Below are positions 20,190-56,309 of a stretch of DNA of 64,000 nucleotides, in pieces. Each line of letters starts with the position of its first letter. Within the stretch, counting starts at the first letter, position 1. Origin of the DNA: Chrysomallon squamiferum (lineage: Eukaryota > Mollusca > Gastropoda > Neomphalida > Peltospiridae); the NCBI GenBank assembly GCA_012295275.1, contig CM022679.1, positions 14,729,342 to 14,793,341 of the forward strand, read 5' to 3'. A program made the translations under genes and the position numbers. Below the pieces are notes generated by a model, which had not been told where the DNA came from, did no database searches, and saw only the letters and a program-made list of their open reading frames with translations.

Positions 20190-23100
20190 ATGGTTCATCA
20201 CAAACATATCTGGATACTTATAATTTTGCTTTGTTTGTCCGGAATTATGCAGTTTGTCATTTATACAGCCTTCAGCACCGTTAAAACTACGCAAAAACAA
20301 CGTACGCTGCAGGCAATCAAGGAAAATCGTTGGGAATTCTTCGATATGGTCTGTTCAAAAGTAATAGAGAACAAATCAGATTCCGCATACTGGATATCCA
20401 AATACTTGGAATTTCAAAAGGAATTTGGTAATAACGTGGATGAATATACTAATAAATTTGCAATGCCAGTGGACTGTTCAAACTTCATCAGTCGTTACGG
20501 ATTCGCAACCGAAGTTACCAAGCAAGAGCTGGAATTTCCGATTGCCTTCGGTATTGTCACTTTCAAAGACCCAGAACAATCAGTGAGATTATTGCGCGCC
20601 ATCTGGCGGCCTCAGAATATCTACTGCATACATATGGACACCAAATCGAGCAGCAGTTTCAAAAGATATATTGAATCCCATGTGAAGTGTTTGGATAATG
20701 TGATTTTCGCTCCAAGAACTGTGGACGTTAGATGGGGCGAATATTCCGTTCTCGAAGCTGATCTGATATGCATGGAGGCACTTTTCAACCACAGAACAAA
20801 GTGGAAATATTTCATAAATTTAACAGGACAGGAATTTCCGCTGAAAACTAATTACGAACTTGTTAAAATTCTAACATTTTACGCCGGTGGGAACGACATA
20901 TATGGACAGTTTCACAGGTAAGTGTGCATAAAATAAATTTAAATGTTCTTCTTCTTCACTTCTCTTTCCCTTTTCTCTATTAAGAGAATTTAAGCTTGAC
21001 CTCTAGATGGACATACATAATAAACCAAATCCACTAGGACAGACGTTCTAACACTCACGTACGTACGCTGAATAACGAAATTATGGACAAACACATTTTA
21101 TCATTGAATCAATGAAACAAATTTGAAAGCAAATTATGGACAAACACATTGTATCATTGAATCAATGAAACAAATTCGAAAGCAAATTATGGTCAAACAC
21201 ATTGTATCATTGAATCAATGAAACAAATTTGAAAGCAAATTTATTTTTCAACAGGATGAACAAAGGTCGCTTGCCAACAGGTATACCGCCACCACATGGA
21301 ATCAGACCAGCCAAGGGACCTGTTCACATAGCAGCAAGTAGAGGCTTTGTAGACTACGTGTTCAATAATCAAACAGCCAAGGATTTTCTTACCTGGACGA
21401 AACTAATGAAAGTTCCAGACGAAACATTTTTCCCATCTCTTAATACGAACCCTCATCTCAAAGTCCCAGGATCATTAAAAAGTAAGAGAAAACACTTTAG
21501 GTGGAAACCGAATAATTTGGAATTATATTTTATTTGAGAAAATTAAATAAACCAGTAAATTTAATTGTTGGGATGTTGATGCAAGGATTTGGTTGTAAGC
21601 AAATTAAAAAATATAAAAGTAATACTACGTAGGGAATCGCACACAGAAAAAAAAAAAAAAAAAAAAAAAAAAATATGTTTACATATATAATAAGAATAAA
21701 GCAAAAAATAAAAAATATAATAAAAAATAAATAAAACCGTGACTGATGTTGCAGAAATGGAAGGATAGTCTGAAGCAGAATGTCATCAATGTAATGCCGA
21801 GCTTTCAGATTTCTGTTAACCAGTGATGTTCTCTCCTGCCCACAAATCCCTCGCCACATCATGACACGTCCTCCTCGTTAAGGCTGTAAAGGCACTATCT
21901 TCCCTTAACTCTGAACAAACAGAACCGGCTTTAATCAGTGAAAACTACGCTCTGCCAAAGTCACAGTCAACCCCATATCAACCTCAGATGATTTAGAACT
22001 ACCAATATGTCATCTATATGATATGTAAGATTTTATTTCATGAGCCCCCAGTCTTTTGTCAGCTAACTGTAATATGACCCAAAGCATCTGTTGTTGATGT
22101 CTTGGGCTAACTGGATACGACCTTTCTGTCTGTAACTTTGCGTCAAGTTGGTTGCAGCAGCTCGGTTCTTGAATTCATAACTCGAGTGTCATTCGTGGCA
22201 TTCCTATTGTGATTTATTTTACACATTCCGTCTGGTTGCACGTGCAGTTTCGCTTGTTCACGATGCACGTGCTATTCGCGTTTTCGCTTATAATCTATTG
22301 CCCCAAAACCTGCCTTGGAGGGGGATCATTTTCTGCATTACAATAGTGTTGCGTTTCGGTCTATGTTTTTAAACTGATCAAGTTTCACCTAGTTTTTAAG
22401 TTTTTCTGAAATTTCATTAATAAAGTTTCTATATATGTAGTACTGGCCATTGTTTGGCAGTCAGCAATTTCTCTTCAAATATTTATTTACTAAATTTATG
22501 CACATAAAATGCTGAAAAATTACATCTTAAAACTTTAATCGAGAACAAGAGAAATAATTTAATTTTAAAATGTTAACGAGCATTCCTAGCTTAGATAATT
22601 AACTTTATAGTTGTTTTAAAGATATGTATCGATATATTTTTAAATAGCATCCGATACAAAAAGATGTTTATTTATTTACGTGCTTTTAATGTTATATCGA
22701 CAAAATGTTTATATACATAATTTTCATGCGAGTCATAATTAATTTCACATGTATTTATTTGTTTCAAGGTTGTATAGACAGAAGTTTTAATTTATTTACA
22801 TTACCTATAAGTTATAATTAACCGTGTATTTTATTTGTTTTCAAATTTATATCCAGACTGTTATTAACTTACATTAGTAAGTTCAAACGTATTTTTTGTT
22901 TTCAAGTTCATATCGACAGAAGACGTTCGACTGATTATTTCTACCGATCGATGGTTCGGTTCAAAATCTTTTCTTATCGAGAAAACGATCCGAAATGCAC
23001 CACGAAGAAAGTCCATGCCGTCTGCATATTTGGAATTAGTGATCTCCACCGGCTAACCAGAGCACCACACCTGTTTGTGAATAAATTCCACCAATCGTAC

Positions 23101-23672: not shown

Positions 23673-25929
23673 ACCGCTATTATTATTTTATTTATTTATT
23701 TATTTTATTTATTTTATTTATTTATTTTTATTTTTATTTTTTTGGCTTAGTCGAATCGCAGTTCCACATACAAATACATAAATTACATGATCCTATTCTA
23801 AAACAGTACACATGTAAGTGCGTTGTCTTTCTAAATAGTTATTTTTATTTTCTCGCTGTCTACTTAGTTTAATTTTCTTGATATCTAGTTACTTCGATTT
23901 TCTGGCCGCAAAGTGTAACTTTACCCCCCCCTCCAAAAAACCCCCTCTTTATTAACTGATCGTACCCAATGTTGAATTTTCAAAGTGGTTTTTTTAATTT
24001 TTTTTATTATTATTATTACCATTATATATATTGCATTCTTTCTATATATTTAATATTATTATCCTTTTTTAATACTATTTTTTTAATTTTTTTTATGTAA
24101 CACACGCAAGTTAATTTGTATAAAAAACTAAACTTTTCTTCTTATTTTTTAAATGTCTCATTTATTTATTTATTTATCTAACTGTTTATTTATTTCTTTG
24201 TATGTTTCTTAGTTTATTTATTTATTATAGAGCTTAACTTATCAGTTTCACTGATTACAAACATTAACTTTGCATTTTTCATCAAAACCAGATTTTTTTT
24301 AGTCTGCTCATGCAATTTCCCCTCACTTCTTATATCGGATAAAAACATGTTTTCTTACCAGTGAAGAGGTTATCCACTGAAGTCTTCCAAGTTTGTTCTG
24401 CATTATTCTATTGCAGTATGTTTTTCCTTTAATAATACATGAAATATACTTTATCTAATAATGAAAACAAAAGTATATGGCATTTATAAAACGTATTTAT
24501 TATATTAACTGTCAATGTAATAATAATAATTAGCATTATAATATAATGCTATAAAAGTCGATGACATTAATGACACAGCAAACTCTACTGTAATTTAATT
24601 CAATTAAAAAAAAAGGTCAGATTTAGTACTAACTCATTTAACAATGTTATACTGGTCACACCCCCCCCCACATGCACACACTCATACATTAATAATGGTT
24701 ATTATCAGTCTCATTTAGTATTCAGAATAATGAAATTACTTTTATTATTTTAAAAGATTATTTTAAAACTTTAGAAATGTAATGGACATTTACTCTTATG
24801 GGTATCATCCCAGTTGTTACACATCCATTTGTCACACACCTTATAAAAACACTGTTATTCAAATGTCTTCTATCAAGTATACAATAATGGATTCATAATC
24901 CCAGTTGTTACACAGTCAGCTTAGGGAATAATTAAGGAATTGATCTCTATTAAGATTTGTCAGAAGTCAAAACAAAAAACAAACAAAGCAAGAAAAAAAA
25001 GCAGTTTGATTTCTGATGATTCTGGAAATTTAATTAATTTTCTGATTCACTGAGCCCAGCAAAAACAACAGCTCACGACAACCGCTCTATCATGTGACTT
25101 GCAGAACCAATCAGACCAAGCATTTTGTTCATCTGATTTCCTGCATCTGTGACAATCGTATATAAACTTATTGTGGTACATAAAGTATACGTGCATAAAG
25201 TATGTATACACACTGAGTAAACGTTAATCACTTCATAAAGCACATAAAGTATGTACACATCTCAACTATATAAAAATTAGGATATTATTTCTTTCTTTCC
25301 CTTTTCGTCCATTAATTAAAGACCCAATTAGTTACAAAACTATATGTTGAAGTTTGATCTAAAACGTCTTGATACACAAAATAAATGAGGTAAATGAAAC
25401 AAGATAAAAACAATCCAAAAAAATCAATGTAATTAAAAATACACACACACAGTATATTTGAATGGATTAAATACATAAAAGTAAAAAGAAAAATAACAAA
25501 ATAAATAGTAATAATAATAATGAATAAATTAACTGAATAGATTCCCAATAATAATTAAAAAAAATAATAAGAAGAAGAACATTAATAATAATAAATAATA
25601 GTAATAGTAATAATCATAGTAGTATTAATAATGCAGACATAAAAAAATTAATACTTTCTCTTCTTAATCAGTGAATATCAATAAAATAAAGGTATGAAAA
25701 GTATTAATTGTATATAATTGTGAAGTATTACAATAAATATATTTAAAAAATATTTATATCAGTGTATTAGAAAATATACATTGTTTATATAACAGTGACA
25801 TAACCTGCAAAGGTTAACACATTACACAAACTTATTGCCTATTTTTTTCTGTTTTCCCTAATTGAAAAGCAAACACAGGTAAATTAAAAGTAAATCACTG
25901 ATAAAGATGTTTTCATTCATTAATACTCA

Positions 25930-25990
<61 letters not shown>

Positions 25991-26400
25991 TAACAACAAT
26001 AAACATTATTCACAAAAAAACACAATTTGATGTATGTTATTTACAAATAAAATAAAGGTAGTGTTAAAATTTCATCACACAAATTAAATCAATTCAACTT
26101 CACACTCATAGCTCAGTGTCAAACAGTTAAATGTAAACACTATTAAATAGAAAAATATTCCTAATTTAAAATTACATTAACTTTATTAATTACTCACTCA
26201 TTTACAATTATTAAATAGATAAATGTAAACACTATTAAATATAAATATTCCTAAAATAATCTTAAATAATTATTCACTAGTTTACAATTCTTGAATAGAA
26301 AAATGTAAACATTATTAACTAAAAAATCATTATAATTTCCTCTTAAATTTAATTTATTAATTATTCACAATTTTATAATTATTAAAGTCAAATTAGTCAT
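23673..26400. other. Intergenic, no gene seen
   Basis: AT-rich with TTTA/TTTAT runs near 23690-23740, a C run at 24661-24670 and an (AAT)n run at 25931-25986. I see no exon with usable splice sites. Confidence 0.6.
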
Positions 26401-26440
26401 TAGTAAATAAAAATATTCCTAATACACTATCATTTATTAT

Positions 26441-26478
26441 TTATTTATCAGAATCAGATGCTTCTGCTGGAAGGTCTC
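26441..26478 (-). other. Terminal mini-exon with stop and poly(A) signals
   Basis: Minus strand: TTCCCTTGCAG acceptor, then two bases completing a codon, then [11 protein letters not shown] and TAA at 26441-26443. It is a diverged copy of A1 ([12 protein letters not shown]) in which a stop has arisen. AATAAA hexamers overlap and follow the stop (minus strand, 26443-26448 and 26433-26438). Confidence 0.65.
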
Positions 26479-29400
26479 CTGCAAGGGAACAGAGTAGATA
26501 CTTTTTTATATAAATCAAAACTTCAATGCATAATTTCTGAAACTATTTTTATCTCCAAGTTATGAGAATTAGATATAATCATTATATTTTATTTCTAAAC
26601 CAAGGTTTTATGAGAATTAGATATAATTATTATATATAGTAGCAATTTTCAAAAGGTTACCATACATACACTGTGTCTCAGTCTGAATATATTTCTGTGT
26701 ATGTCTATGTAATACATGTGTGCATTTATATGTGTCCTGTGTATGTGCTAACTGTAGGTACTGATATGTATCTGCACTGTCTATGTATCTATGTTTATAT
26801 GTACTGTGTGTATGTAATTACGTGCATGTTTCTACATTGCCCAGGTCACAGTTTCTGACAGAAAATTACTACTGACTACTATGCATTCAGACATCTAATA
26901 TACATATAGAGAAGAGAAGACTTTCAGTTTTTAACTTACCAGATACATAGTTATCTCTATATTTAGGTACAGATACGTATGTACTTTGTCTATCTATTTA
27001 TTTTTATGTTTCTATGTTGTTCAGGTCAGAGTGCTTGACAGAAAAATATTAATGACTGCTGTGTAGTCTGTTATCTTTTAAACATGTAGAGAAGAGAAAA
27101 CTTTCAGTTTTTAACTTACAAAATAAATAATTATCTCCTATCTGAGCAGATCCAGAATGAGATGCTTTTGCTGGAAGGCCTCCTGCAGTGGAACAGAGTA
27201 GATTCTTTTTTTATATAAATCAAAACTTCAATGCATAATTTGTGAAAATATTTTTATCTCCAAGTTATGAGAATTAGAAATAATCATTATATATAGTAGC
27301 AATTTCTTAAACAGCAGCCTAGGTTTTATGCATATATAGAGATATGCAGCATTCGGGTTGCCATACATACACTGTGTCTCAGTCTGAATATATTTGTGTG
27401 TACATCTGTGTAATGCATGTGTGCATTTATATGTGTTCTGTGTATGTCCTAACTGTAGGTACTCATATCTATCTACTCTGTCTATGTATGGATATGATGT
27501 TTCTATCATGTTCAGGTCACACTGTGTGACAGAAAAATATTGATGACTATTGTGTATTCTGTTTTCTATTAAACAAGCAGAGAAGAGAAGACTTTCAATG
27601 TTCAACTTACCATAGTTATCTCCTATTTGTCTAGAACCAGAATGAGATTTGGGCCCTCGCCTATGTCTTGCTGTGAATCAGAGCAACATACATTTCTATA
27701 ATTCACAACTTCAGAGCATAATTTCAGAAAGTGTTTTTAACTGCAAAATTCTGAGCTTTAGATGCAGCAGAAGTTTTTGAAAAACAAAAACGTTTTTTTC
27801 ATCTAAATGCAGACATATGACAGCATACATTTTAACATACATTGTGTCTCTGAAATACTTGTGTCTATGTCTGTGTATTACATGATGACGTGTAGATATG
27901 TGTCCAAGTATGTGTTCTCTGTATAGACTAAGTGTACCTACAGGTATCTATGTTTATATGTACTGTTTGTTTATGTGCACGTTTCTACGTTGCTCAGGTG
28001 ACGGTGTCTGACAGAAAATTACTACTGACTATTAATATGCATAGACACAAGAGAAGACTTTCAGTTTTTAACTTACCAGATACATCGTTATCTATATATT
28101 TAGGTACAGATACGTATGTACTTTGTCTATTTATTTATTTGCACGTTTCTATGTTGTTCAGGTCAGAGTGCTTGACAGAAAAATACTAATGACTACTGTG
28201 TAGTCTGTTATCTTTTAAACATGTAGAGAAGAGAAAACTTTCAGTTTTTAACTTACAAGATAAATAATTATCTCCTATCTGAGCAGATCCAGAATGAGAA
28301 GCTTTTGCTGGAAGGCCTCCTGCAGTGGAACAGAGTAGATTCTTTTTTATATAAATGAAAACATCAATGCATAATTTGTGAAAATATTTTTACCTCCACC
28401 TTATGAGAATTAGATATAATCATTATATATAGTAGGAATTTTTTAAACACACACCCCTAGGTTTTATGCATATATAGAGATATGCAGCATTTAGGTTGCC
28501 ATACATACACTGTGTCTCAGTCTGAATATATTTGTGTGTACATCTGTGTAATGCATGTGTGCGTTTATATGTGTTCTGTGTATGTCCTAACTGTAGGTAC
28601 TCATATCTATCTACTCTGTCTATGTATGGATATGATGTTTCTATCATGTTCAGGTCACGCTGTGTGACAGAAAAATCTTGATGACTACTGTGTATTCTGT
28701 TTTCTATTAAACAAGCAGAGAAGAGAAGACTTTCAATGTTCAACTTACCATAGTTATCTCCTATTTGTCTAGAACCAGAATGAGATTTGGGCCCTGGCTG
28801 TTGTCCTGCTGTAAATCAGAGCAAAATGCATTTCTATAATTCACAGCTTCAGAGCATAATTTCTGAAAATGTTTCTACGTGCAAAATTCTGAGCACTGGA
28901 TGCAGCAGAAGTTTTTGAAACACAAAAAAATTTTTTTCATCTACATGCAGAGATATGACAGCATACATTTTAACATACATTGTGTCTCTGAATATACTTG
29001 TTTCTATGTCTGTGTATTGCATGATGACGAGTAGATCTGTCCAAGTATGTGTTCTCTGTATAGACTAAGTGTACCTACAGGTATCTATGTTTATATGTAC
29101 TGTGTGTATGTATTTATGTGCACGTTTCTACGTTGCTCAGGTGACACTGTCTGACAGAAAATTACTACTGACTACTATTAATTCAGACATCTAATATACA
29201 TAAAGAGAAGAGAAGACTTTCAGTCTTGAACTTACCAGATACATAGTTATCTCTATATTTAGTTACAGATACGTATGTACTTTGTCTATTTATTTATTTG
29301 CACGTTTCTATGTTGTTCAGGTCAGAGTGCTTGACAGAAAAATACTAATGACTACTGTGTATTCTGTTATCTTTTAAACATGTAGAGAAGAGAAAACTTT

Positions 29401-32400
29401 CAGTTTTAACTTACAAGATAAATAATTATCTCCTATCTGAGCAGATCCAGAACGAGAAGCTTTTGCTGGAAGGCCTCCTGCAGTGGAACAGAGTAGATTC
29501 TTTTTATATAAATCAAAACTTCAATGCATAATTTGTGAAAATATTTTTACCTCCAACTTATGAGAATTAGATATAATCATTATATATAGTAGCAATTTTT
29601 TAAACAGCCCCCTAGGTTTTATGCATATATAGAGATATGCAGCATTCTGGTTGCCATACATACACTGTGTCTCAGTCTGAATATATTTGTGTGTACATCT
29701 GTGTAATGCATGTGTGCATTTATATGTGTTCTGTGTATGTCCTAACTGTAGGTACTCATCTATCTACTCTGTCTATGTATGGATATGATGTTTCTGTCAT
29801 GTTCAGATCACACAGTGTGACAGAAAAATATCGATGACTACTGTGTATTTTGTTTTCTATTAAACAAGCAGAGAAGAGAAGACTTTCAATGTTCAACTTA
29901 CCATAGTTATCTCCTATTTGTCTAGAACCAGAATGAGATTTGGGCCCTCGCCTATGTCTTGCTGTGAATCAGAGCAACATACATTTTTATAATTCACAAC
30001 TTCAGAGCATAATTTCTGAAAGTCTTTTTATGTGCAAAATTCTGAGCTTTAGATGCAGCAGAAGTTTTTGAAAAACAAAAAACCTTTTTTCATCTACATG
30101 CAGAGATATGACAGCATACATTTTAACATACATTGTGTCTCTGAATATACTTGTTTCTATGTCTGTGTATTGCATGATGACGAGTAGATCTGTCCAAGTA
30201 TGTGTTCTCTGTATAGACTAAGTGTACCTACAGGTATCTATGTTTATATGTACTGTGTGTATGTATTTATGTGCACGTTTCTACGTTGCTCAGGTGACAC
30301 TGTCTGACAGAAAATTACTACTGACTACTATTAATTCAGACATCTAATATACATAAAGAGAAGAGAAGACTTTCAGTCTTGAACTTACCAGATACATAGT
30401 TATCTCTATATTTAGTTACAGATACGTATGTACTTTGTCTATTTATTTATTTGCACGATTCTATGTTGTTCAGGTCAGAGTGCTTGACAGAAAAATACTA
30501 ATGACTACTGTGTATTCTGTTATCTTTTAAACATGTAGAGAAGAGAAAACTTTCAGTTTTTAACTTACAAGATAAATAATTATCTCCTATCTGAGCAGAT
30601 CCAGAACGAGAAGCTTTTGCTGGAAGGCCTCCTGCAGTGGAACAGAGTAGATTCTTTTTTATATAAATCAAAACTTCAATGCATAATTTGTGAAAATATT
30701 TTTACCTCCAACTTATGAGAATTAGATATAATCATTATATATAGTAGCAATTTTTTAAACAGCCCCCTAGGTTTTATGCATATATAGAGATATGCAGCAT
30801 TCTGGTTGCCATACATACACTGTGTCTCAGTCTGAATATATTTGTGTGTACATCTGTGTAATGCATGTGTGCATTTATATGTGTTCTGTGTATGTCCTAA
30901 CTGTAGGTACTCATCTATCTACTCTGTCTATGTATGGATATGATGTTTCTGTCATGTTCAGATCACACAGTGTGACAGAAAAATATCGATGACTACTGTG
31001 TATTTTGTTTTCTATTAAACAAGCAGAGAAGAGAAGACTTTCAATGTTCAACTTACCATAGTTATCTCCTATTTGTCTAGAACCAGAATGAGATTTGGGC
31101 CCTCGCCTATGTCTTGCTGTGAATCAGAGCAACATACATTTTATAATTCACAACTTCAGAGCATAATTTCTGAAAGTCTTTTTATGTGCAAAATTCTGAG
31201 CTTTAGATGCAGCAGAAGTTTTTGAAAAACAAAAAACCTTTTTTCATCTACATGCAGACATATGACAGCATACATTTTAACATACATTGTGTCTCTGAAT
31301 ATACTTGTTTCTATGTCTGTGTATTGCATGATGACGAGTAGATCTGTCCAAGTATGTGTTCTCTGTATAGACTAAGTGTACCTACAGGTATCTATGTTTA
31401 TATGTACTGTGTGTATGTATTTATGTGCACGTTTCTACGTTGCTCAGGTGACACTGTCTGACAGAAAATTACTACTGACTACTATTAATTCAGACATCTA
31501 ATATAAATAAAGAGAAGAGAAGACTTTCAGTCTTGAACTTACCAGATACATAGTTATCTCTATATTTAGTTACAGATACGTATGTACTTTGTCTATTTAT
31601 TTATTTGCACGATTCTATGTTGTTCAGGTCAGAGTGCTTGACAGAAAAATACTAATGACTACTGTGTATTCTGTTATCTTTTAAACATGTAGAGAAGAGA
31701 AAACTTTCAGTTTTTAACTTACAAGATAAATAATTATCTCCTATCTGAGCAGATCCAGAACGAGAAGCTTTTGCTGGAAGGCCTCCTGCAGTGGAACAGA
31801 GTAGATTCTTTTTTATATAAATCAAAACTTCAATGCATAATTTGTGAAAATATTTTTACCTCCAACATATGAGAATTAGATATAATCATTATATATAGTA
31901 GCAATTTTTTAAACAGCCCCCTAGGTTTTATGCATATATAGAGATATGCAGCATTCAGGTTGCCATACATACACTGTGTCTCAGTCTGAATATATTTGTG
32001 TGTACATCTGTGTAATGCATGTGTGCATTTATATGTGTTCTGTGTATGTCCTAACTGTAGGTACTCATATCTATCTACTCTGTCTATGTATGGATATGAT
32101 GTTTCTATCATGTTCAGGTCACACTGTGTGACAGAAAAATATTGATGACTATTGTGTATTCTGTTTTCTATTAAACAAGCAGAGAAGAGAAGACTTTCAA
32201 TGTTCAACTTACCATAGTTATCTCCTATTTGTCTAGAACCAGAATGAGATTTGGGCCCTCGCCTATGTCTTGCTGTGAATCAGAGCAACATACATTTCTA
32301 TAATTCACAACTTCAGAGCATAATTTCTGAAAGTCTTTTTATGTGCAAAATTCTGAGCTTTAGATGCAGCAGAAGTTTTTGAAAAACAAAAAACTTTTTT

Positions 32401-35400
32401 TCATCTACATGCAGACATATGACAGCATACATTTTAACATACATTGTGTCTCTGAATATACTAGTGTCTATGTCTGTGTATTTCATGATGACGAGTAGAT
32501 CTGTGTCCAAGTATGTGTTCTTTGTATAGACTAAGTGTACCTTCAGGTATCTATGTTTATATGTACTGTGTGTATATATTTATGTGCACGTTTCTACGTT
32601 GCTCAGGTGACGGTGTCTGACAGAAAATTACTACTGACTACTATGACTATTCTGACATCTAATATATATAGAGAGAAGAGAAGACATTTTACGTGCAAAA
32701 TTCTGAGAATTAGATGGAGCAGAAGTTTTTGAAACACAAGAAACTTTCTTTCATCTACTGTGTATTCTATTATCTAGTAAACATGTAAAGAAGAGAAATC
32801 TTTCAGTTTTTAACTTACCGGATTCGCAGTTATCTTCTGTTTCACTAGAATCCAAATCAGGTACATATACTGCCAGTTGTTCTGCAGTGAAAAAGCGTAA
32901 ATACATTCTTTATAATTCACAACTTCAATGCATTATTTCTGAAAGTGTTTATACCTCCAAATTCTGAGAATTAGATATAATTATTTAATGTAGTAGCAGT
33001 TTTTGAAACAGAAGAAACTGGTTTTTTTTTCGATGTGTAAAGATATGACAGTATGCAGTTTAAGATACATACACTGTGTCTCTGAATATATTTGTCTGTT
33101 TGTCTGTTGTGCATGTCTGCATATATGTGCATGTGTATATGTGGGTGCTGGTTACATACAAGTAAGTATGCTGATATGCGTTGTGTCTATGTATGTTTAT
33201 ATGTACTGTGTCTATGTATTTATGTCCTCGTTTCTGTGTAATCCATGTCTACTGTATGTATGTGCTGTGTGTATGTGCTAAGTGTAGATACAGGTATGTA
33301 TTTATATGCACTGTGTCTATATATTTATGTGCGTGTCTCTATTTTGTTCAGGTCACAATGTGTGACAGAAATGAACTAATGACTACAATCTATTCTGTTA
33401 CCTATTAAATATACAGAGAAAAGAAAACTAAGTTTTTAACTCACTGCATTCAGTATTATCGTCTGTTTCAGAAGAATGAGAATCTTCTACATCTTCTGTC
33501 TTTTCTCCTGTGAAACAGAGTGAATACATTTTTATAATTCACAACTTCAATGCATAATTTCTGAAAATGTTTTTACCTTCAAAATTCTGAGAATTAGATA
33601 TAATTATTAAAGGTAGTAGCATTTCTTAAAACAGAAAAAGTCTTTTTCAGCTATGGAGCATGGAGTTTTACAACATTTAAATAAGTAATGGCCAATATAA
33701 GAATAATTATCATGGTCATGAGGAAGTAATAATTAGTGTGTGTTTTGTGTTTTGCTATTTTCATCTGTCAGAAATTACCTCTACCTCTTTAAATTGTTTA
33801 TTTATTATCAAAATAAATAAAATAGTGTGAATTTACAAAAGACAAAAAGTAAACATTATAATGTGCAGACATATGACAGCATACATTTTAACATACATTG
33901 TGTCTCTGAATATACTAGTGTCTATGTCTGTGTATTTCATGATGACGAGTAGATCTGTGTCCAAGTATGTGTTCTTTGTATAGACTAAGTGTACCTTCAG
34001 GTATCTATGTTTATATGTACTGTGTGTATATATTTATGTGCACGTTTCTACGTTGCTCAGGTGACGGTGTCTGACAGAAAATTACTACTGACTACTATGA
34101 CTATTCTGACATCTAATATATATAGAGAGAAGAGAAGACATTTTACGTGCAAAATTCTGAGATTAGATGGAGCAGAAGTTTTTGAAACACAAGAAACTTT
34201 CTTTCATCTACTGTGTATTCTATTATCTAGTAAACATGTAAAGAAGAGAAATCTTTCAGTTTTTAACTTACCGGATTCGCAGTTATCTTCTGTTTCACTA
34301 GAATCCAAATCAGGTACATATACTGCCAGTTGTTCTGCAGTGAAAAAGCGTAAATACATTCTTTATAATTCACAACTTCAATGCATTATTTCTGAAAGTG
34401 TTTATACCTCCAAATTCTGAGAATTAGATATAATTATTTAATGTAGTAGCAGTTTTTGAAACAGAAGAAACTGTTTTTTTTTCGATGTGTAAAGATATGA
34501 CAGTATGCAGTTTAAGATACATACACTGTGTCTCTGAATATATTTGTCTGTTTGTCTGTTGTGCATGTCTGCATATATGTGCATGTGTATATGTGGGTGC
34601 TGGTTACATACAAGTAAGTATGCTGATATGCGTTGTGTCTATGTATGTTTATATGTACTGTGTCTATGTATTTATGTCCTCGTTTCTGTGTAATCCATGT
34701 CTACTGTATGTATGTGCTGTGTGTATGTGCTAAGTGTAGATACAGGTATGTATTTATATGCACTGTGTCTATATATTTATGTGCGTGTCTCTATTTTGTT
34801 CAGGTCACAATGTGTGACAGAAATGAACTAATGACTACAATCTATTCTGTTACCTATTAAATATACACAGAAAAGAAAACTAAGTTTTTAACTCACTGCA
34901 TTCAGTATTATCGTCTGTTTCAGAAGAATGAGAATCTTCTACATCTTCTGTCTTTTCTCCTGTGAAACAGAGTGAATACATTTTTATAATTCACAACTTC
35001 AATGCATAATTTCTGAAAATATTTTTACCTTCAAAATTCTGAGAATTAGATATAATTATTAAAGGTAGTAGCATTTCTTAAAACAGAAAAAGTCTTTTTC
35101 AGCTATGGAGCATGGAGTTTTACAACATTTAAATAAGTAATGGCCAATATAAGAATAATTATCATGGTCATGGGGAAGTAATAATTAGTGTGTATTTTGT
35201 GTTTTGCTATTTTCATCTGTCAGAAATTACCTCTACCTCTTTAAATTGTTTATTTATTATCAAAATAAATAAAATAGTGTGAATTTACAAAAGACAAAAA
35301 GTAAACATTATAATGTGCAGACATATGACAGCATACATTTTAACATACATTGTGTCTCTGAATATACTAGTGTCTATGTCTGTGTATTTCATGATGACGA

Positions 35401-37911
35401 GTAGATCTGTGTCCAAGTATGTGTTCTTTGTATAGACTAAGTGTACCTTCAGGTATCTATGTTTATATGTACTGTGTGTATATATTTATGTGCACGTTTC
35501 TACGTTGCTCAGGTGACGGTGTCTGACAGAAAATTACTACTGACTACTATGACTATTCTGACATCTAATATATATAGAGAGAAGAGAAGACATTTTACGT
35601 GCAAAATTCTGAGAATTAGATGGAGCAGAAGTTTTTGAAACACAAGAAACTTTCTTTCATCTACTGTGTATTCTATTATCTAGTAAACATGTAAAGAAGA
35701 GAAATCTTTCAGTTTTTAACTTACCGGATTCGCAGTTATCTTCTGTTTCAGGTACATATACTGCCAGTTGTTCTGCAGTGAAAAAGCGTAAATACATTCT
35801 TTATAATTCACAACTTCAATGCATTATTTCTGAAAGTGTTTATACCTCCAAATTCTGAGAATTAGATATAATTATTTAATGTAGTAGCAGTTTTTGAAAC
35901 AGAAGAAACTGTTTTTTTTTTCGATGTGTAAAGATATGACAGTATGCTGTTTAAGATACATACACTGTGTCTCTGAATATATTTGTCTGTTTGTCTGTTG
36001 TGCATGTCTGCATATATGTGCATGTGTATATGTGGGTGCTGGTTACATACAAGTAAGTATGCTGATATGCGTTGTGTCTATGTATGTTTATATGTACTGT
36101 GTCTATGTATTTATGTCCTCGTTTCTGTGTAATCCATGTCTACTGTATGTATGTGCTGTGTGTATGTGCTAAGTGTAGATACAGGTATGTATTTATATGC
36201 ACTGTGTCTATATATTTATGTGCGTGTCTCTATTTTGTTCAGGTCACAATGTGTGACAGAAATGAACTAATGACTACAATCTATTCTGTTACCTATTAAA
36301 TATACAGAGAAAAGAAAACTAAGTTTTTAACTCACTGCATTCAGTATTATCGTCTGTTTCAGAAGAATGAGAATCTTCTACATCTTCTGTCTTTTCTCCT
36401 GTGAAACAGAGCGAATACATTTTTATAATTCACAACTTCAATGCATAATTTCTGAAAATGTTTTTACCTTCAAAATTCTGAGAATTAGATATAATTATTA
36501 AAGGTAGTAGCATTTCTTAAAACAGAAAAAGTCTTTTTCAGCTATGGAGCATGGAGTTTTACAACATTTAAATAAGTAATGGCCAATATAAGAATAATTA
36601 TCATGGTCATGGGGAAGTAATAATTAGTGTGTATTTTGTGTTTTGCTATTTTCATCTGTCAGAAATTACCTCTACCTCTTTAAATTGTTTATTTATTATC
36701 AAAATAAATAAAATAGTGTGAATTTACAAAAGACAAAAAGTAAACATTATAATGATGTACACTGCATTCATAAAGATATAAACAATTTTGTCATACTTCC
36801 TAGCAGATAATATCCGAGGTTCAAAACAAGTTCCATAGCGGCTGACCTATAAAAGTGTAAACATTAACACAAAGCCTTTAAAGTATGTTTTCTGAACTGG
36901 ACTAGTAAATTATGTAAATCTAATAACTACAAAAACAGTTTCACTTGGTTATATTCTCTTAATTTAGAGATGTGTACTAAATATAATTAACAGAATAGTT
37001 ACGAAGCTATTTTCTTTATTTTGTCAACCTTAATATCAAACTATGCTATGTAAACAATGTAAATGCAGATATCATAAGAATAGTTTGACTAAATTAAGTA
37101 AAGTAAAAATATAGTAATAGTTTCAATAATTTATATTTATAGAATTTTTAATACTAATACTAAATTAAGTTATATAAACAATGAAAATATACAAAATATC
37201 AGAATACCTACAGCAACATATATTCTTAATTTTCTAAATATCAACACTAATTTGTAATACAAACAATGGAAATATATAGATAATATCAGAATAATATTAG
37301 TAAGTTATATGCTCAGGTTTCTCAATACCGATACTAAATTAGTTACATAAAAACTATCAATGAAAACTTACAAAAATGCACCCATGTTTGTTTTTTCAAA
37401 ACTGCAGAATGTTCGTGCTGCAGATGTTTAACTCCACTGTATTGTACAGTTCAGTCAATTCACACTAAATATGACAGGAAGAACGTCAGAAGAACAAAGA
37501 CGTCAGATAAAAGAAATGCATACAAAAGTGATGTCCAGCAAATTGAGAATCCCAGCAAATCTGAAAATATTTGTAAAATAATGAAAACAAAAAAATACAC
37601 TTCATATTTTTAAAAAGAAACGAAACAATCAAAAAAAAAAAAAAACTTTCATAATACTTACTAATTATTCTTTCCTCTTATTTTTTTTTCTTATTTTTAG
37701 CTTCCGTTAAGTAATTTGTTTTGATATTTTTTCTTTGTTTTTATCTTGTTTTATATAATTATTTAGTTCCAGTAAATAAGATCGTTAATAAAGCTAGCCA
37801 CTGAATGTCAGTTAGTTTAAATTTACCATGCTATGTCATGTAAATATTATGTGTGAATATTATGACTTGGCAAAGAGCATTACCTTAATAATATCTTTCT
37901 TTGTGTATAAC

Positions 37912-37950
<39 letters not shown>

Positions 37951-38344
37951 TATTCATGTTACAGCATATTATAATTTCAGCAAGACACGCAGACATTGTT
38001 TATTTAGTTGGTTAATTTCTTTTCACGACTCACATTACATTTAAGATACATTTCCACTTTTAACTACGTTACGGGATAAACACATTAATTATCCTAAACA
38101 CAATTTTATTTGAAAAGCAAATTCATTTCTTTCCACTTTTTTATTTTATTTTATTTTATTTTATGTTATTGTACATGTTTTATTTTTTTAAATCTTTTTT
38201 ATGACCTGTTTCAATTTGTTTCCCTGTAATCTCAATGAGTCATATGATTAACCGGCAGATTTAAATTTCTAGTCTATGCACTTTTAAGTGCAGTCGTTCT
38301 AGGTCACCGGTTTATTTCTTTATACAAATTAGAATACAGACACG

Positions 38345-38387
<43 letters not shown>

Positions 38388-38463
38388 ACACACACAACAC
38401 ACAATCGAAAGTGGGAGGCGTAGAAGACATACAGAAAGAGGAAAAATAAGAGACCTAACTCAA

Positions 38464-38508
<45 letters not shown>

Positions 38509-39029
38509 TTCTTTTTTCGCACAATAATAGTCAAGCCCCACCGAATTTATGCTCACAGTAGTGCAACCTGTTTTATAATTAAAAACATAAAAAAAAAAAA
38601 ATAAGAACAGCTTGCTTTCTTTGTTAAACACTATATACAAAGTAAACCACATACTGTCAAACACTGAAATAATGATAATTAGAAAAGACATGATCTGAAA
38701 CTTTCCACAACGGAATTATTTATATTTACTTTTGCTGTTGACAATTTCAATTAATAAACAAAAAATTTGTTAATTTCTTCATCAAGGCTAATAACGATAT
38801 TTTCTATGATTGCTATGGCTTCGTCTTTGATAGTTTTGACGTATTTTGTTGTTGTGTAAATGTTGATGATCATTTTAATGTACCTGTGACTTGGCGAGTA
38901 TTTAATGTATTTTCTTTGAGTATGTGTTGGTAATTAAAGTGTGTTATTGTGTTAAGGTGTAGAAAGGGTCAGATGTGGAGTATGTTACATACATGCATAT
39001 ATTACTACTACTACTACTACTACTACTAC

Positions 39030-39069
<40 letters not shown>

Positions 39070-39375
39070 GCCTGATTTTGCCTCATTTCAAAAAGAGTCT
39101 AGTTACGGCCAATGGTTTATCATAATTAGACTACGTTTTGCAACTTCCCGAATAGCAACTTCACATCACCATCAATATTTGACGACACAAGTTAATTTCA
39201 ATATTATATTTTCAAATAATCAGTTATTTCGTAGACATTTTACTCCTCAATCGAGTATTTCATAAGATAACTGAAAAAGAAGTGTATATTATTATGTTGA
39301 CAACCTGCTCGTTCATCAACAGTGGTTATACTTAGACGCGCTTTCATTACAGGTGCTGCTTTATTATTATTATTA

Positions 39376-39431
<56 letters not shown>

Positions 39432-39716
39432 GTTGTTGTTGTTGTTGTTTGTGGTGGTGTTGGTAGTGTTGTTGATGTTGGTGATGGTGTTGTTATACAT
39501 ACAACGATATAACTCGATTTAATAACAACAACAACAATACTAATAACAACAACAAAAACAACGGAAATAATTAAGTGTAGTTTGACATTAAACTTTGACC
39601 TGTTGACACACGAAACTAGATAGATAGATAGATAGTTCATGTTCATGTATTAGTACGTAACACTGAAGTAGAATTGCTAATAATTAAAAGTCGAATTTAT
39701 TATTAAAAAATATATC

Positions 39717-39773
<57 letters not shown>

Positions 39774-40715
39774 CATATTCGGAAACCCATACCGACAGTA
39801 CGATATCATTTTTTAAATATCTGAATACGACAATGAAATTCACAGATAATTTTTATTTATTTATTTATTTTTTATTTATTTATTTTTATAGAAACAAAAA
39901 ACGAAAAATGGAGAAAGACACAATCGCACTTAATAAAAAAACCTCTCCATTAAATCATTTATTTTAAAATATGGCGAAATAAAAATAATAAAGACTTGTA
40001 AAACATTAAAGTCTGTTATTTTCTAATTGGTTTCTACGTGACAAAACTGATGTTAAGAACATGTCTAGATCAAGTGAAGATGTTTTATGTCATCCGTTTA
40101 TCTGGATGCAGTATATGACTGTAACTTGGTGACAGTTATGACAGCATGTACTTAATACCTGTGGATCGACATCAAAGTAAATTTCGAATCTTGTCAACTA
40201 GCGAATTGTCACAAATTCTACCTCGTCTGCTTAGACACATCAGGTTTTTCCACGTAATATGTTATTCTGATTGCTTACTGACTATAACAATCAGTTCTAA
40301 GTATAGCACATTTGTCAAAGTGGTTTATATGAGCATTATACAGGGACGAGCTATATATCATTTTTTTCGGTCCCCTCTTCTGAACGTAACTGACAACGAC
40401 AAACAATAAAAGCCAGGAAGAAAAAATAAAATAAAATAACTAATAACAAAAGTAAAATAAAATAAAATAAAGGAAAAAATTAAAACAGAAAGAAAGAAAA
40501 GTAATAAATTTCGTATCACAGATCTGTCCTGAATATGAAACTATTTCCAGTGGCTTATCATAATTATTCTGCACTTTTTGTAACTTCCTAAACAGACTAA
40601 TTTACATCAGCATTAATATTAAATAATTTTTAATTTTCCTTAGATCAGTATTCCTCTATCGACTGCTTTACGAGATAACTGAACAACATATTATATTTAT
40701 TTATTTATTATTATT

Positions 40716-40748
<33 letters not shown>

Positions 40749-42080
40749 ATTATTATAGATGTTGTGTTTAAACAACATACATTATTATTCAATGAAAAAG
40801 GATATAGTAAAAGTTAATAAAATAAGTAAATCATTATTTATAATGTAATTTTATTACTTCATAATTGTTGATGTATTATTTAAAAATGAAAATTCAAACG
40901 TGAGCCGAGTTTCGAATATTAGAATCCGGATTCTCCGTAAAAATAATAAAATAAAATAAATAATTTTATATCGAGGAATAAATAAACAATCAACAGTCAC
41001 TGCTAACAGCAGTGTAGTAAAATGTTTTGCCTACCTGTGGATCGATATCAAAGTAAAATTCGAATCTTGTCAACTAGCGAATTGTCACAAATTCTACGAC
41101 GTCTGCTTAGACACATCAGGTTTTTCCACGTAATATGTTATTCTGATTGCTTACTGACTATGACGATCAGTTCTAAGTATAGCTCTTTTGTCAAAGTGGT
41201 TTATATGAGCAGTATACAGGGGGAGCTATATATCATTTTTTTCGGTCCCCCCCTTCTGAACGTCACTGACAACAACAACAAACAATAAAAGCCAGGAAGA
41301 AAAAATTAAATAAAACAAAACAAAATAAAATAAAATAAAATGAAATAACTAATAACAAAAGTAAAATAAAATAAAATAAAGGAAAAAATAAAAACAGAAA
41401 GAAAGAAAAGTAATAAAGTTCAGTCCTGAATATGAAACTATTTCCAGTGGCTTATCATAATTATTCTACACTTTATATATATAGTTCTTATGTTGTTCAA
41501 TTAAATTATTTAGTGTCAGTAAATAAGATCATTATTAAAGTTAGCCACTGAATGTCAGTTAGTGTGAATATTATGACTTGGCAAAGAGCATTACCTTAAT
41601 AATATCTGTCCCTGTGTGTACGGACACGCACGCATGCACACACACACACACAGACACACATATTATTCGTGTTACAGCATGTTCTACATTCAGCCAAACA
41701 CGGCTGATATTGTTTATTTAGATGTTTAATTTGTTTTCAGACCTCACATTACGTTTAATATTCATTTCCAGTCTTAACTACTCGTAATGCACAAACATAT
41801 TAATTATCCTAAACACAGTTTTATTTCTTTTTTAAAATTCATTTCTTTCCATATTTTTATTTTATTTTATTTTATGTTATAGTACATGTTTTATTTTTAA
41901 GTCTTTTTTTTTTATATACCGTGTTTCAATTTTTTTCCATATAATCTTAATAAGAGTCCTATGATTAACAGCATATTTTAATGCAGTCTATATAAGTGTA
42001 GTTCTAAGTGTAGTTCGTTCTAGGATACCGTTGTTGTTTTTTTCGTTTGTTTTCTTTCTATAAAGAAATTATAATACAAA

Positions 42081-42138
<58 letters not shown>

Positions 42139-43787
42139 TCACAGACACACACACACAGACACACACACACACAGAGACACACATACACACACACACACAT
42201 ACACAACACACACGCCAAAGTGGGAGGGAAAAGTAGACAAACAGAAAGAGGAAAAATAAGAGAAATAACTTGATGTTAATAATAATAATAATAATAATAA
42301 TAAAAACATTTTTTTTTTTTTTTTTTTTTTTTTGTACAATAAGAGCGAAGCCCAACTGAATTTGTGTAAACAGTATTGCTACCAGTTATAAAAATTTTTT
42401 AAAATAAATTCATAAATGTTTTCTTTGTAACACACTATAGAGCACATAAACCACATTCTCTCAAACACTGAAAGAATGAAAATTAGAAAAAACATGACAT
42501 GAATCTTTCCACAATGGAATTATTTATATTTCCTTTTGCTGTTGACAATTTCAGTTAATAAACAGGAATTTTTTAATTTTTTCATCAAGACTAAAGAAAA
42601 TTTTCTCCACGATTGCTTTGGCTACGCCAGTCATAATTTTAATATATAGTAAATGTTAGAGAGTATTGGAAAAAAACACCAGATGTGTTGTATACGTTGC
42701 TACATAAATGCATAATTTAAGAAAGAAAAAACAAACTCTTGCTGTCTTTGTAATGAACTATACAGTACATAAGCAATACACTCTCAAACAACTGAAAAAT
42801 GATAATTACAAGGGACATAACAGAAATCTTTCCACAACGGAATCATTCATATTTCCTTTTGCTGCCGATAGTTTTAGTTAATAAACAGGAATTTTTGTTA
42901 ATTTCTTCTTCAGTGGTAATGAAGATATTTTCCACTGTTGGCTGCTTTGGCTATGCCTGACACCAGACCCGGATTTCCCATACAGACTTTCTAGGCTAAT
43001 GCCCAGGGAGGCAGGATGATAGGGGCGGCAGTTTATATTACATAAATTCGTATTTTTTACCATGTTTTGCTTTCAATTAGATCATAAGTTATAACCATTC
43101 AAATTATATAAACTAAGTGGGAAGGGTGAGGGGGACTTGAGCCTTGAGGAGGGGGCGGTTAAATTTCTTTAGACTATGGGCGGCAAGCGCATTAACTCCA
43201 ACCCTGCCTGTGACAGCTTTAAGGGAGAACTTTTGATTATTATGTGAATATGTTACTAAGATGCGAATAATAATAATAATAATAGTAGTAGTAGTAGTAG
43301 TAGTAGTAGTAGCAATAGTAATAGTAGTAGTAATGGCAGTAGTAGTAGTAGTAGTGATAATAATAAATGTTTTTATGTAACAACACATGCTCCACATCTG
43401 ATACTGTCTACATCTATTTTAACACATTTTATACTAACAACATGTGACAAGTAATTACAAATTCGTGATGATTAACAACAGAATGATTTTTTATGTTTCT
43501 GAATGATAGGTATAACTGATTTCACTGTGAGAGGCCAGTGTATCATGTCTCCATGTTCTCAATCTGCAGTATATCATTTTCTTCTTCTTAAAGCAGAGGT
43601 GTTATTTTATTAATTTTTAAAAATACTCATGAAAACACAATTTTCACAATATTGTTACTTTAAAAACTTAATTCTAATTAATTACTCTTACCTCGTGTTA
43701 AATTTGTTCTTTCTCTTCTGTTTAAAGCTGATGATGGGCTGACTGGGCCAGGTTCTGGCTCCGAGTTGCTGAGTAGACATAGTCAAG
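26441..43787 (-). CDS. Unrecognised minus-strand gene made of tandemly amplified phase 1-1 mini-exons
   Basis: I do not recognise the product. Exons in transcript order: 43692-43768 or 43692-43787; pairs D/C 36336-36398, 35725-35772, 34897-34959, 34272-34334, 33445-33507, 32819-32881; pairs A2/A1 32213-32272, 31723-31785, 31057-31116, 30569-30631, 29902-29961, 29415-29477, 28749-28808, 28257-28319, 27611-27670, 27120-27182; terminal 26441-26478. Each has a CAG acceptor after a pyrimidine tract and a GTAAGT or GTGAGT donor, with phase 1 at both ends, so any exon can be skipped without shifting frame. Encoded motifs are acidic and Ser-rich: D has [15 protein letters not shown] has [16 protein letters not shown]2 has [14 protein letters not shown]1 has [13 protein letters not shown]. 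The terminal exon ends ASDSDK and stop. The start codon is not identified. No domain, membrane segment or signal peptide is visible. Probably a flexible, variable repeat region; expression is unproven. Confidence 0.6.
26461..32310. repeat. ~1.15-kb tandem array (five units) carrying A2 and A1 mini-exons
   Basis: Corresponding points recur at 27344, 28482, 29637, 30792 and 31946, spacings 1138, 1155, 1155 and 1154 bp. Units 3 and 4 are almost identical, so amplification or gene conversion is recent. Each unit holds an A2 exon (60 nt), an A1 exon (63 nt) and a B remnant. The three subunits share intron motifs such as AGAGAAGAGAAGACTTTCA next to the donor, so each unit is itself an older triplication. 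A first incomplete unit lacks A2. Confidence 0.95.
26940..31557 (-). pseudogene. Five B-type exon remnants or 15-nt micro-exons
   Basis: At 26940-26954, 28077-28091, 29236-29250, 30389-30403 and 31543-31557 a good GTAAGT donor follows the codons for NYVS (NDVS in one copy). The 5' half of the exon and its pyrimidine tract have been deleted into the neighbouring intron. An AG just upstream would leave a phase 1-1 micro-exon of 15 nt. Its weak acceptor makes simple decay the likelier reading. Confidence 0.45.
32311..36750. repeat. ~1.45-kb tandem array (three units) carrying C and D mini-exons
   Basis: Corresponding points lie at 32535, 33989 and 35441, spacings 1454 and 1452 bp. Units are almost identical over introns and exons. 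Each contains exon C, exon D and a roughly 240-bp spacer (for example 33630-33865) that is absent from the 1.15-kb array. In the third unit exon C lacks 15 nt. Confidence 0.95.
36990..37370. repeat. Degenerate A-rich tandem repeat
   Basis: About five loose copies of an AAATTA-GTTATATAAACAATG-like unit, 60-110 bp apart. The same family recurs at 44370-44690. Confidence 0.7.
37914..37949. repeat. (AC)n microsatellite
   Basis: An AC run. A second long one at 42081-42134 occupies the matching duplicated block. Confidence 0.95.
38347..38508. repeat. (AC)n and (AAT)n microsatellites
   Basis: AC run at 38347-38385 and AAT run at 38464-38508, in the segment that matches 42081-42303. Confidence 0.95.
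39001..39069. repeat. (ACT)n(ATT)n microsatellite
   Basis: Compound triplet run. Similar runs follow at 39360-39449 (ATT then GTT) and 39719-39770. Confidence 0.95.
40159..40360 (-). promoter_or_regulatory. Candidate first exon and TATA promoter, copy P1
   Basis: Minus strand: a TATATAG element (40352-40359) is followed 20-30 bases on by CCCTGTATAATGCTCATATA and then about 165 bases ending CCACAG before a GTATTAAG donor at 40158. It is about 90% like P2. No start codon opens into the downstream coding frame, so it would be leader only. A role as first exon of the mini-exon gene is inferred from orientation and position. Confidence 0.4.
41035..41234 (-). promoter_or_regulatory. Candidate first exon and TATA promoter, copy P2
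   Basis: Same layout as P1: ATATATAG at 41226-41233, CCCCCTGTATACTGCTCATA, then a leader ending CCACAG before a GTAGGC donor at 41034. The sequence upstream of the TATA element is also conserved with P1. Confidence 0.4.
43260..43366. repeat. (AAT)n(AGT)n triplet repeat
   Basis: Compound triplet run with a few interruptions, downstream (minus sense) of the 43.7-kb exon. Confidence 0.95.
43692..43787 (-). other. Upstream coding exon of the mini-exon gene
   Basis: Minus strand: a TGTGTTTCAG acceptor (exon top 43787) or a TCTACTCAG acceptor (top 43768), and a GTAAGAG donor below 43692. In the frame that fits phase 1 of the mini-exons it reads [19 protein letters not shown] and then TNLTRG. That frame meets a TGA just after the first acceptor, so the internal one (top 43768) is favoured. 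An ATG-initiated frame is also open but hits a stop in exon D. Confidence 0.5.
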
Positions 43788-56088: not shown

Positions 56089-56309
56089 AAAAAAAAAAAA
56101 AAAAAAAACGTGTATATCAATCGACAGTGTTGGACTTCATTTTAAACAATTAGTGAATAGAAAATGATTTGTAGATAACGTTTTAAACAGCAAAAGAGCA
56201 AAGGAACAAAATTTTAATGAGAGAAACCTTCAAATAGTTGTTACTGGAAAAAAAAAATATACAATGTTTTGTTTAGTGCACTAATAATGATAAAACTTCT
56301 TGAAACGAA
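55766..56309 (+). other. Probable 5' UTR of GT14 copy 3
   Basis: About 540 bp between the inferred acceptor and the start codon, with an AAAT/A-rich run at 56031-56108. No long frame is in it, but several short upstream ATGs are. Confidence 0.45.

Follow-up and report, generated by a model that had tools for sequence, protein, structure and literature searches.

Introduction

Amyloid motifs are carried by NLR-type receptors in fungi and bacteria, and animal RHIMs are known to occur as one or a few motifs on few proteins. Schistosome micro-exon genes (MEGs) consist of short symmetric exons in series and show high variability; their micro-exons are shorter than the 48–66 nt mini-exons that are the subject of this work. 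In the fungal NWD2/HET-S system, an NLR with one motif (R0) templates 21-residue repeats in a partner protein, and HET-s has two 21-residue pseudo-repeats (PMC7889193). Here we analyse a 64,000-nt stretch of the genome of the snail Chrysomallon squamiferum (assembly GCA_012295275.1, contig CM022679.1, positions 14,729,342 to 14,793,341; hereafter the window, to which positions refer unless another source is named) that contains, on its minus strand, a gene made of tandemly amplified symmetric mini-exons. We propose, at a probability of roughly 0.55, that such mini-exons are RHIM-derived signalling arrays of NLR-like receptors, and that the copy in the window lost its STAND-ankyrin part and would now act as a stand-alone adaptor or decoy.

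The mini-exon peptides share with the RHIM of RIPK1 and RIPK3 (PF12721) a length of about 20 residues and the order N, S-G, Q-[IV]-G-D, N-Y, and exons of the same module on contig 10 are picked out by the RHIM model. Compared by eye with the RIPK3 RHIM, their spacing is one residue longer from SG to Q and one shorter from GD to Y; unlike RHIM, their first core residue is usually not Val or Ile, and they come in tens of copies in series. With NWD2/HET-S and related amyloid NLRs the snail family would share a short amyloid motif on an NLR-type receptor and partners built of motif repeats, but its repeats number up to 30 or more, lie before the receptor NTPase, are encoded one per exon and belong to an animal. 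The family also has the runs of short symmetric exons seen in schistosome MEGs, but in a mollusc, with a cytosolic-looking leader, RHIM-like repeats and introns amplified along with the exons. Two nSTAND3-ankyrin proteins of Gigantopelta aegis, a snail of the same family as C. squamiferum, have the NTPase and ankyrin layout of the relatives' receptors, but as annotated they contain no [VITL][QVH][ILVMC]G[NDAHT] stretch, and the window copy lacks both domains. Finally, the same RING plus Deltex C-terminal exon as in RING/Deltex E3 ligases lies behind an array on contig 11, to which that array would be spliced. In the literature that we searched, most of it other than subscription papers and seen in part, we found no description of RHIM arrays or RHIM-STAND proteins in molluscs; one paper (PMC7322524) contains the words 'tandem RHIM' once. 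Judging from the genome sequence, RHIM-derived motifs of an animal here appear to stand before STAND receptors, to be multiplied exon by exon and to be partly under diversifying selection.

Sixteen phase-1 mini-exons in two arrays

A preliminary description of the window, made from its letters, had placed 16 mini-exons on the minus strand, and their positions, lengths, splice sites and phase are confirmed in all 16 cases. Between 36398 and 27120, each has an AG acceptor, a GTAAGT or GTGAGT donor and phase 1 at both ends, and each measures 60 or 63 nt except a single one of 48 nt. The proposed repeat units are likewise real: array 1 comprises three A/B pairs with a unit of about 1.45 kb and array 2 five pairs with a unit of about 1.15 kb, giving four exon types. 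Mini-exons 1 to 6 below are defined by splice sites and frame, and mini-exons 7 to 16 by splice sites, frame and a profile match.

36336..36398, minus strand: mini-exon 1, array 1 type A, 20-residue peptide
35725..35772, minus strand: mini-exon 2, array 1 type B, 48 nt, 15-residue peptide
34897..34959, minus strand: mini-exon 3, array 1 type A
34272..34334, minus strand: mini-exon 4, array 1 type B, 20-residue peptide
33445..33507, minus strand: mini-exon 5, array 1 type A
32819..32881, minus strand: mini-exon 6, array 1 type B
32213..32272, minus strand: mini-exon 7, array 2 type A, 19-residue peptide
31723..31785, minus strand: mini-exon 8, array 2 type B, 20-residue peptide
31057..31116, minus strand: mini-exon 9, array 2 type A
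30569..30631, minus strand: mini-exon 10, array 2 type B
29902..29961, minus strand: mini-exon 11, array 2 type A
29415..29477, minus strand: mini-exon 12, array 2 type B
28749..28808, minus strand: mini-exon 13, array 2 type A variant, 19-residue peptide
28257..28319, minus strand: mini-exon 14, array 2 type B
27611..27670, minus strand: mini-exon 15, array 2 type A
27120..27182, minus strand: mini-exon 16, array 2 type B, 20-residue peptide, last base T
26441..26478, minus strand: terminal exon, what is left of a B-type mini-exon truncated after ATTCTG, joined at about 26448 to 3' sequence (from comparison with L034)
31560-31518, ~30406-30364, 29253-29211, 28093-28052 and 26958-26915, minus strand: relic half mini-exons with a good donor and no matched acceptor half, one per array-2 unit (from a frame-blind DNA model)

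The phase-1 frame is open in all 16 mini-exons. Stops in the other frames, which the preliminary description had asserted, are present throughout frame +1 (16 of 16) and in 13 of 16 exons for frame 0. The predicted joined product has 347 amino acids (347 open codons) and the C-terminus ...GDNYLF. The single frame was thought to continue to a stop inside the terminal exon; instead, the junction 27120/26478 is itself a TGA, with 27182-27120 ending in T and 26478-26441 beginning with GA, and the TAA of the terminal exon is therefore not reached if all exons are used. Every array-2 B exon has T as its last base and GA as its first two, so the exons are frame-neutral yet not all skip-neutral: skipping without damage, as had been envisaged, holds for array-2 B exons and fails for the A exons, half of that array, whose omission creates a TGA. 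The acidic motif ascribed to every exon is a character of array 1 only, the A exons of array 2 being basic, and QIG is present in all ten array-2 exons and in none of the six array-1 exons.

The mini-exon family and its translation

Since the copies in the window are near-identical (array-2 units differ by 0.2–5% outside the exons), the window holds only about four independent exon types, and the strength of the mini-exon case therefore rests on other loci. We searched a genome of 404.6 Mb, whose 22 contigs comprise 15 large ones and 7 of less than 40 kb, the window lying on a contig of 31.7 Mb, and drew the family from 28 fetched genomic stretches (numbered with the prefix L) plus the window. 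A search of the assembly for COX1 gave no match. A DNA search with 701 bases gave at least 166 matching pieces, most of them, among the matches listed, on contigs 14 and 11. Splice sites were consistent for 111 of 216 profile hits; removal of four rows that scored less than 9 bits (from L014, L015, L017 and the window) and addition of the six array-1 exons of the window left 113 intact mini-exons from 16 sources, 104 of them with GTAAGT. Their lengths are multiples of 3 by design of the search; sizes in the family run from 48 to 66 nt, and the 63 exons of 66 nt have the consensus GQQSANISHSGSTQIGDNYVS. The frame-blind DNA model returned 167 hits, 113 of which overlap the intact set; the other 54 are partial, frame-shifted or splice-site-less exons, single receptor exons, or open exons missed by the protein filter, including four in L017.

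The gene is indeed built of tandemly amplified symmetric mini-exons, and the number of intact mini-exons at related loci ranges from 1 to at least 34. On contig 14, a leader at about 1,002 kb is accompanied on the same strand by 30 intact exons in 967–987 kb (16 in L033, 14 in L015), and contig 11 has a leader at 14.027 Mb and 34 intact exons in 14.035–14.055 Mb (20 in L023, 14 in L016); the 1.2 kb of these leader-array gaps that was covered (L064) contains no mini-exon. Exons and leaders with defects are found throughout the family. A search of predicted proteins for array homologues yielded nothing among 7990 candidates at E <= 1, and a second search gave 1 of 7988, at E 0.097, carrying another domain.

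The 30 contig-14 exons join without a stop into 650 residues; the choice of open exons leaves the junctions as the sole test of the frame. Among neighbouring exons, 0 of 97 junctions create a stop, against about 2.5 expected by chance. To assess selection, paralogous loci were aligned by their introns and each exon was used once; the sets are small and loci overlap between them. In six exon pairs, codon positions 1+2 differ at 30/246 sites (12%), position 3 at 5/123 (4%) and flanking introns at 98/2255 (4%), so that positions 1+2 exceed both introns (p 4e-6) and position 3 (p 0.013), and position 3 equals the introns. Four pairs of a second set gave 24/170, 6/85 and 54/1528 (p 1.5e-7 against introns, p 0.15 against position 3), and the contig-11 array agrees weakly, with 33/176, 12/88 and 168/1524 (p 0.004 and 0.39). 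When pooled exons are divided into halves, pN/pS reaches 1.7 for the linker half as against 0.67 for the core half. These comparisons point to translation in the phase-1 frame and, in part of the family, to diversifying selection.

A non-coding, satellite-like repeat with an accidental open frame would fit the joint amplification of introns and exons and the finding that third positions are the least variable in pooled exons; against it, the 650 joined stop-free residues add little, each exon having been chosen open. Between intron-aligned paralogues, however, position 3 changes at the intron rate and positions 1+2 about three times faster, as translation would have it. We rejected a satellite on these position-specific rates and consider it barely credible; it is strongly contradicted for the family and less directly for the window copy.

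Two observations concern individual arrays. In L014 (1719-5504, plus strand) four mini-exon copies have the same altered donor, CTGATAAG, and it seems from their sequence that one unit type was lost before the array was copied. Within the contig-11 array lies a 277-amino-acid open frame (L016:2494-3324, minus strand) that looks transposase-like by eye and has no Pfam match at E 0.001.

Relationship of the mini-exons to RHIM exons

Fifty mini-exon peptides from other loci, out of 88 distinct ones, were compared singly with Pfam. Only three of 24,736 families were matched at E <= 10, namely HET-S by four peptides (best E 0.006), HET-s_218-289 by one (0.08) and RHIM by one (0.098), all below cut-off, and all three are amyloid-signalling motifs. 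Column-permuted peptides matched no family, and reversed peptides matched one unrelated family, MELT, once. For comparison, the RIPK3 RHIM itself matches RHIM, HET-S and EAD10 in Pfam, and joined arrays match HET-S or EAD10 weakly. When an array of ten exons was run against the PDB with phmmer, the top three of eight matches were RIPK3 RHIM entries (E 0.37–0.43).

A link to RHIM came from a genome search with the Pfam RHIM model, which is blind to the mini-exons. Of 11 places with E <= 10 (lowest E 0.37), five lie on contig 10 and three on contig 3; one place on contig 10 (E 0.44) and one on contig 1 (E 0.37) reached the cut-off, the former with 20.7 against 20 when taken together with its neighbours. 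A DNA model of the mini-exon with 25 nt on each side spans four of the five contig-10 RHIM exons end to end, at 42 to 24 bits (E 3.5e-13, 1.1e-10, 2.6e-8 and 1.4e-7 in 8.4 kb searched), and the fifth on its donor side only. The four exons have the acceptor TTTCACAG and the donor GTAAGTTGAAAA as in mini-exons, and one of them, at 17,234,970, has an nSTAND3 domain 2.4 kb downstream on the same strand. On the window, all 22 hits of the same DNA model at E 1 fall inside the array. Tested against Pfam RHIM, contig-10 and L017 exons gave E 0.0006 and 0.09. Because four of the five contig-10 RHIM exons match the mini-exon DNA model with the same borders, it is very likely that the module descends from, or together with, RHIM exons, even though most mini-exons lack a strict core: xQ[VILCMTK]G is found in 48 of the 88 distinct peptides beyond those with the full core. 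Thus the units, which the preliminary description could assign to no described family, look like diverged relatives of RHIM.

Several results weigh against the RHIM-array reading or against its reach. None of the single mini-exons passes the Pfam cut-off: for RHIM (PF12721) the matches amount to the one of 50 other-locus peptides at E 0.098 and none of the six distinct window peptides, which match no Pfam family at all, just as the single receptor exons of L026 and L029 do not. The full core [VI]Q[VILCM]G is present in only 4 of the 88 distinct peptides, and array 1 of the window is without QIG. Joined arrays match gerPA better than HET-S, a profile of the 50 peptides finds two antibody chains and no RHIM in the PDB, hhalign against three RHIMs reaches only 56.6% probability, and the RHIM matches in the genome are weak (E 0.37 and up). 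As regards selection, the contig-14 array shows no excess of positions 1+2 over position 3 (14/88 and 8/44, introns 64/693, p 0.06) and a pN/pS of 0.72, all exon pairs pooled have a pN/pS of 1.0, and the copies in the window resemble each other too closely to be tested. The window copy could also be a relic with open exons.

Some of these points would fit a beta-solenoid that serves a receptor or adhesive protein as scaffold or as ligand-binding stalk, its RHIM likeness being convergence on S-G-x-x-I-G-D turns. For the joined arrays gerPA ranks first in Pfam (E 0.0017 and 0.0004, below cut-off) and SnoaL_5 is matched too, the core tetrad is mostly incomplete, and in some groups selection acts more strongly on the linker half. 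Convergence does not, however, explain why contig-10 exons found with the RHIM model share DNA homology and intron borders with the mini-exons, nor would a scaffold need the loci that have one such exon before nSTAND3. We regard a scaffold as unlikely.

A different RHIM-like family is represented by L055 and L061 (contig 3, 1.60–1.63 Mb), which contain RHIM-like TIQIGNNNEMYT and NTQIGNNNLMIV (Pfam RHIM E 0.004, below cut-off); a basic segment follows these stretches, and they have no mini-exon borders.

Receptor and ligase domains behind related arrays

Directly 3' of the contig-14 array, L034 has a phase-1 acceptor exon encoding nSTAND3 and ankyrin (855 amino acids open, E 7.3e-25), a frame that stops after a few ankyrin repeats. 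In L021 an array is followed, 2.5 kb past the last mini-exon, by an nSTAND3 exon in matching phase (E 4.6e-25) that is open to the end of the stretch. L026–L032 contain a single related exon, tied to the mini-exons by a common donor and following intron, whose peptide ...VSNSRNVVFGDQVVEI is RHIM-like by eye. Behind this single exon, a phase-1 acceptor with an nSTAND3 frame is present in L026, L029, L030, L031 and L032; the frame is interrupted in L031, as is that of L027. Ankyrin is recognised by Pfam in L029, L030 and L034, STAND and ankyrin pieces are spread over several frames in L022, and L017 and L035 combine mini-exons with ankyrin repeats. In the genome as a whole, Pfam nSTAND3 has at least 22 matches, 22 of the 163 candidates of the first look having been scored. 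For one STAND protein of this genome, the two top homologues are from G. aegis, the better of them with 43% identity; a RHIM-like pattern was present in none of nine proteins (seven homologous STAND proteins and two of the snail's own).

A RING plus Deltex C-terminal exon lies 1.4 kb behind the contig-11 array (L024:737-1204, plus strand; contig 11, 14.0556 Mb), and from its position this locus is possibly a RHIM-array E3 ligase. No STAND or ankyrin sequence was found in L009–L013, L019 and L020, in 7–9 kb each, reaching 2.3 to 5 kb past the last exon. Four of these, L009, L010, L011 and L013, combine a leader and an array with pieces of the 3' block described below, an arrangement that suggests a stand-alone class; a STAND exon farther than the 2.3–5 kb covered is possible in these four, and most so in L010.

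The leader and the start of the gene

The preliminary description had started the gene at 43787. We rejected this start: 43787-43692 has no match in L009–L016, whereas block 37544-36557, upstream of the array, is kept at other loci and matches in several of them. The block contains two leader exons:

37372..37385, minus strand: coding part of leader exon 1, ATGGGTGCATTTTT then gtaagt, encoding MGAF and ending in phase 2, with the 5' untranslated region upstream (block at 14 loci)
36797..36846, minus strand: leader exon 2, 50 nt, phase 2 to phase 1, with a gtatga donor also present in aligned relatives (from alignment with relatives)

Read from the ATG at 37385, the two exons give 21 residues beginning MGAFLS..., an N-myristoylation-like leader. 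The gene most likely starts at this leader, which it has in common with 13 other loci. Met-Gly with Ser at position 6 is the usual N-myristoylation pattern. The exon-1 block has 15 matches in the genome at 14 loci (two at one locus). Ten of the 14 have Met-Gly (the window, L009–L013, L019, L065, L066 and L067) and four do not (L014, L020, L021 and L022); Met-Gly together with Ser at position 6, read through exon 2, was found at 6 of the 9 loci of the first exon-1 search. L022 has the Ser without the Gly, and L019 has no full-length open exon 2. The leader is thus usually MG[AGV]xxS. Read by eye, it shows no consistent hydrophobic signal peptide, being hydrophilic in L012 and L022 and mildly hydrophobic in the window.

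This leader bears on the idea of a mollusc counterpart of the schistosome MEGs, a secreted variable protein made from symmetric exons. Short symmetric exons, tandem expansion and diversifying selection in part of the family would all agree with it, but the usual MG[AGV]xxS leader would not, and the domains that the module precedes in phase (STAND-ankyrin) or lies near (RING/Deltex) are cytosolic. We find such a counterpart very improbable. The role of variable effector or matrix protein, suggested in the preliminary description, was rejected on the same two grounds, the type of leader and the cytosolic domains behind related arrays.

The 3' end: adaptor or remnant

The sequence fused to the truncated mini-exon at about 26448 sits, in L034, about 2 kb behind the STAND-ankyrin frame, and it opens the following block:

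24399..26448, minus strand: 3' block common in pieces with L034 (84% over 542 nt at the block start) and, less closely, with L009, L010, L011 and L013 (from DNA comparison)

Neither STAND nor ankyrin was detected in the 64-kb window (best tblastn E 0.18), so the window gene itself matches neither the nSTAND3 NTPase nor the ankyrin repeats of nSTAND3-ankyrin receptors.

The window copy might accordingly be a decaying receptor remnant, in which STAND-ankyrin was deleted and the array kept expanding, which makes no useful protein and whose open exons were recently copied from a few that used to be coding. The missing STAND-ankyrin, the TGA at the terminal junction, the loss of the QIG core from array 1, the broken exons and leaders across the family, the slight divergence of array-2 units outside the exons (0.2–5%) and the failure of the window peptides to match any Pfam family are all in keeping with decay. 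On the other hand, all 16 mini-exons and the two leader exons, together with the ATG, keep intact splice sites and frames while alignable non-exon DNA is about 20–30% diverged from paralogues, and at L009, L010, L011 and L013 a leader and an array are likewise accompanied by pieces of the 3' block, no STAND or ankyrin match being found within 2.3–5 kb past the last exon. A remnant is a serious alternative, to which we give distinctly less weight than to an adaptor or decoy.

The proposed model of RHIM-derived receptor arrays has support from sequence in the exon module, the leader, the gene layout, the homology to RHIM exons and the diversifying selection in some paralogues. The mini-exons would be copies of one phase-1 module encoding a diverged RHIM-type amyloid-signalling motif of about 21 residues. 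Behind the short, presumably myristoylated leader, this module would form the N-terminal arm of nSTAND3-ankyrin (NLR-like) receptors, with one such exon at some loci and 30 or more at others. If expressed and spliced as drawn, the arm could serve as a membrane-tethered seed: upon oligomerisation of the receptor the aligned motifs would nucleate a cross-beta (amyloid) assembly and draw in partners that carry a matching motif, the part played for HET-S by the R0 motif of fungal NWD2. Array length would set the strength of seeding and sequence divergence its specificity. In the window copy the STAND-ankyrin exon would have been lost and the last mini-exon cut and joined to downstream sequence, leaving the 347-residue array alone as an adaptor, an amplifier or a decoy that blocks receptor arrays; the acidic array 1, in which QIG is absent, may serve as a spacer or may have degenerated already. 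What was described as an unknown variable effector or matrix gene would then be a stand-alone branch of a RHIM-derived exon family linked to STAND receptors, arrays of which precede nSTAND3-ankyrin elsewhere.

More tentatively still, the family as a whole might form an immune repertoire of amyloid addresses, in which STAND-ankyrin receptors, an E3 ligase and stand-alone adaptors each have a RHIM-derived array. Unequal exchange would alter array length, diversifying selection would keep the addresses private so that each receptor seeds its own partners, and stand-alone arrays would be trans-acting amplifiers or decoys; the repertoire would perhaps police gland endosymbionts and other microbes. 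If the model is true, it links animal, fungal and bacterial amyloid signalling, offers a natural experiment on the number of motifs needed by a seed, and accounts for an unusual gene structure through the shuffling of a symmetric phase-1 exon.

Surroundings of the array

An Rfam scan of the window returned no family. Three open frames with a core-2/I-branching glycosyltransferase domain (PF02485) flank the array on the plus strand, at 20169-20918, 50858-51607 and 56304-57053, and two of them are followed by a 53-bp tandem repeat of about three copies (21078-21241 and 51726-51877). On the minus strand we noticed by eye four similar stretches, GACAAGATT...ACAG, at 47.1, 45.3, 41.1 and 40.2 kb of the window; three of them continue with gtaagc, gtaggc or gtatta, and they look like duplicated 5' exons or promoter copies.

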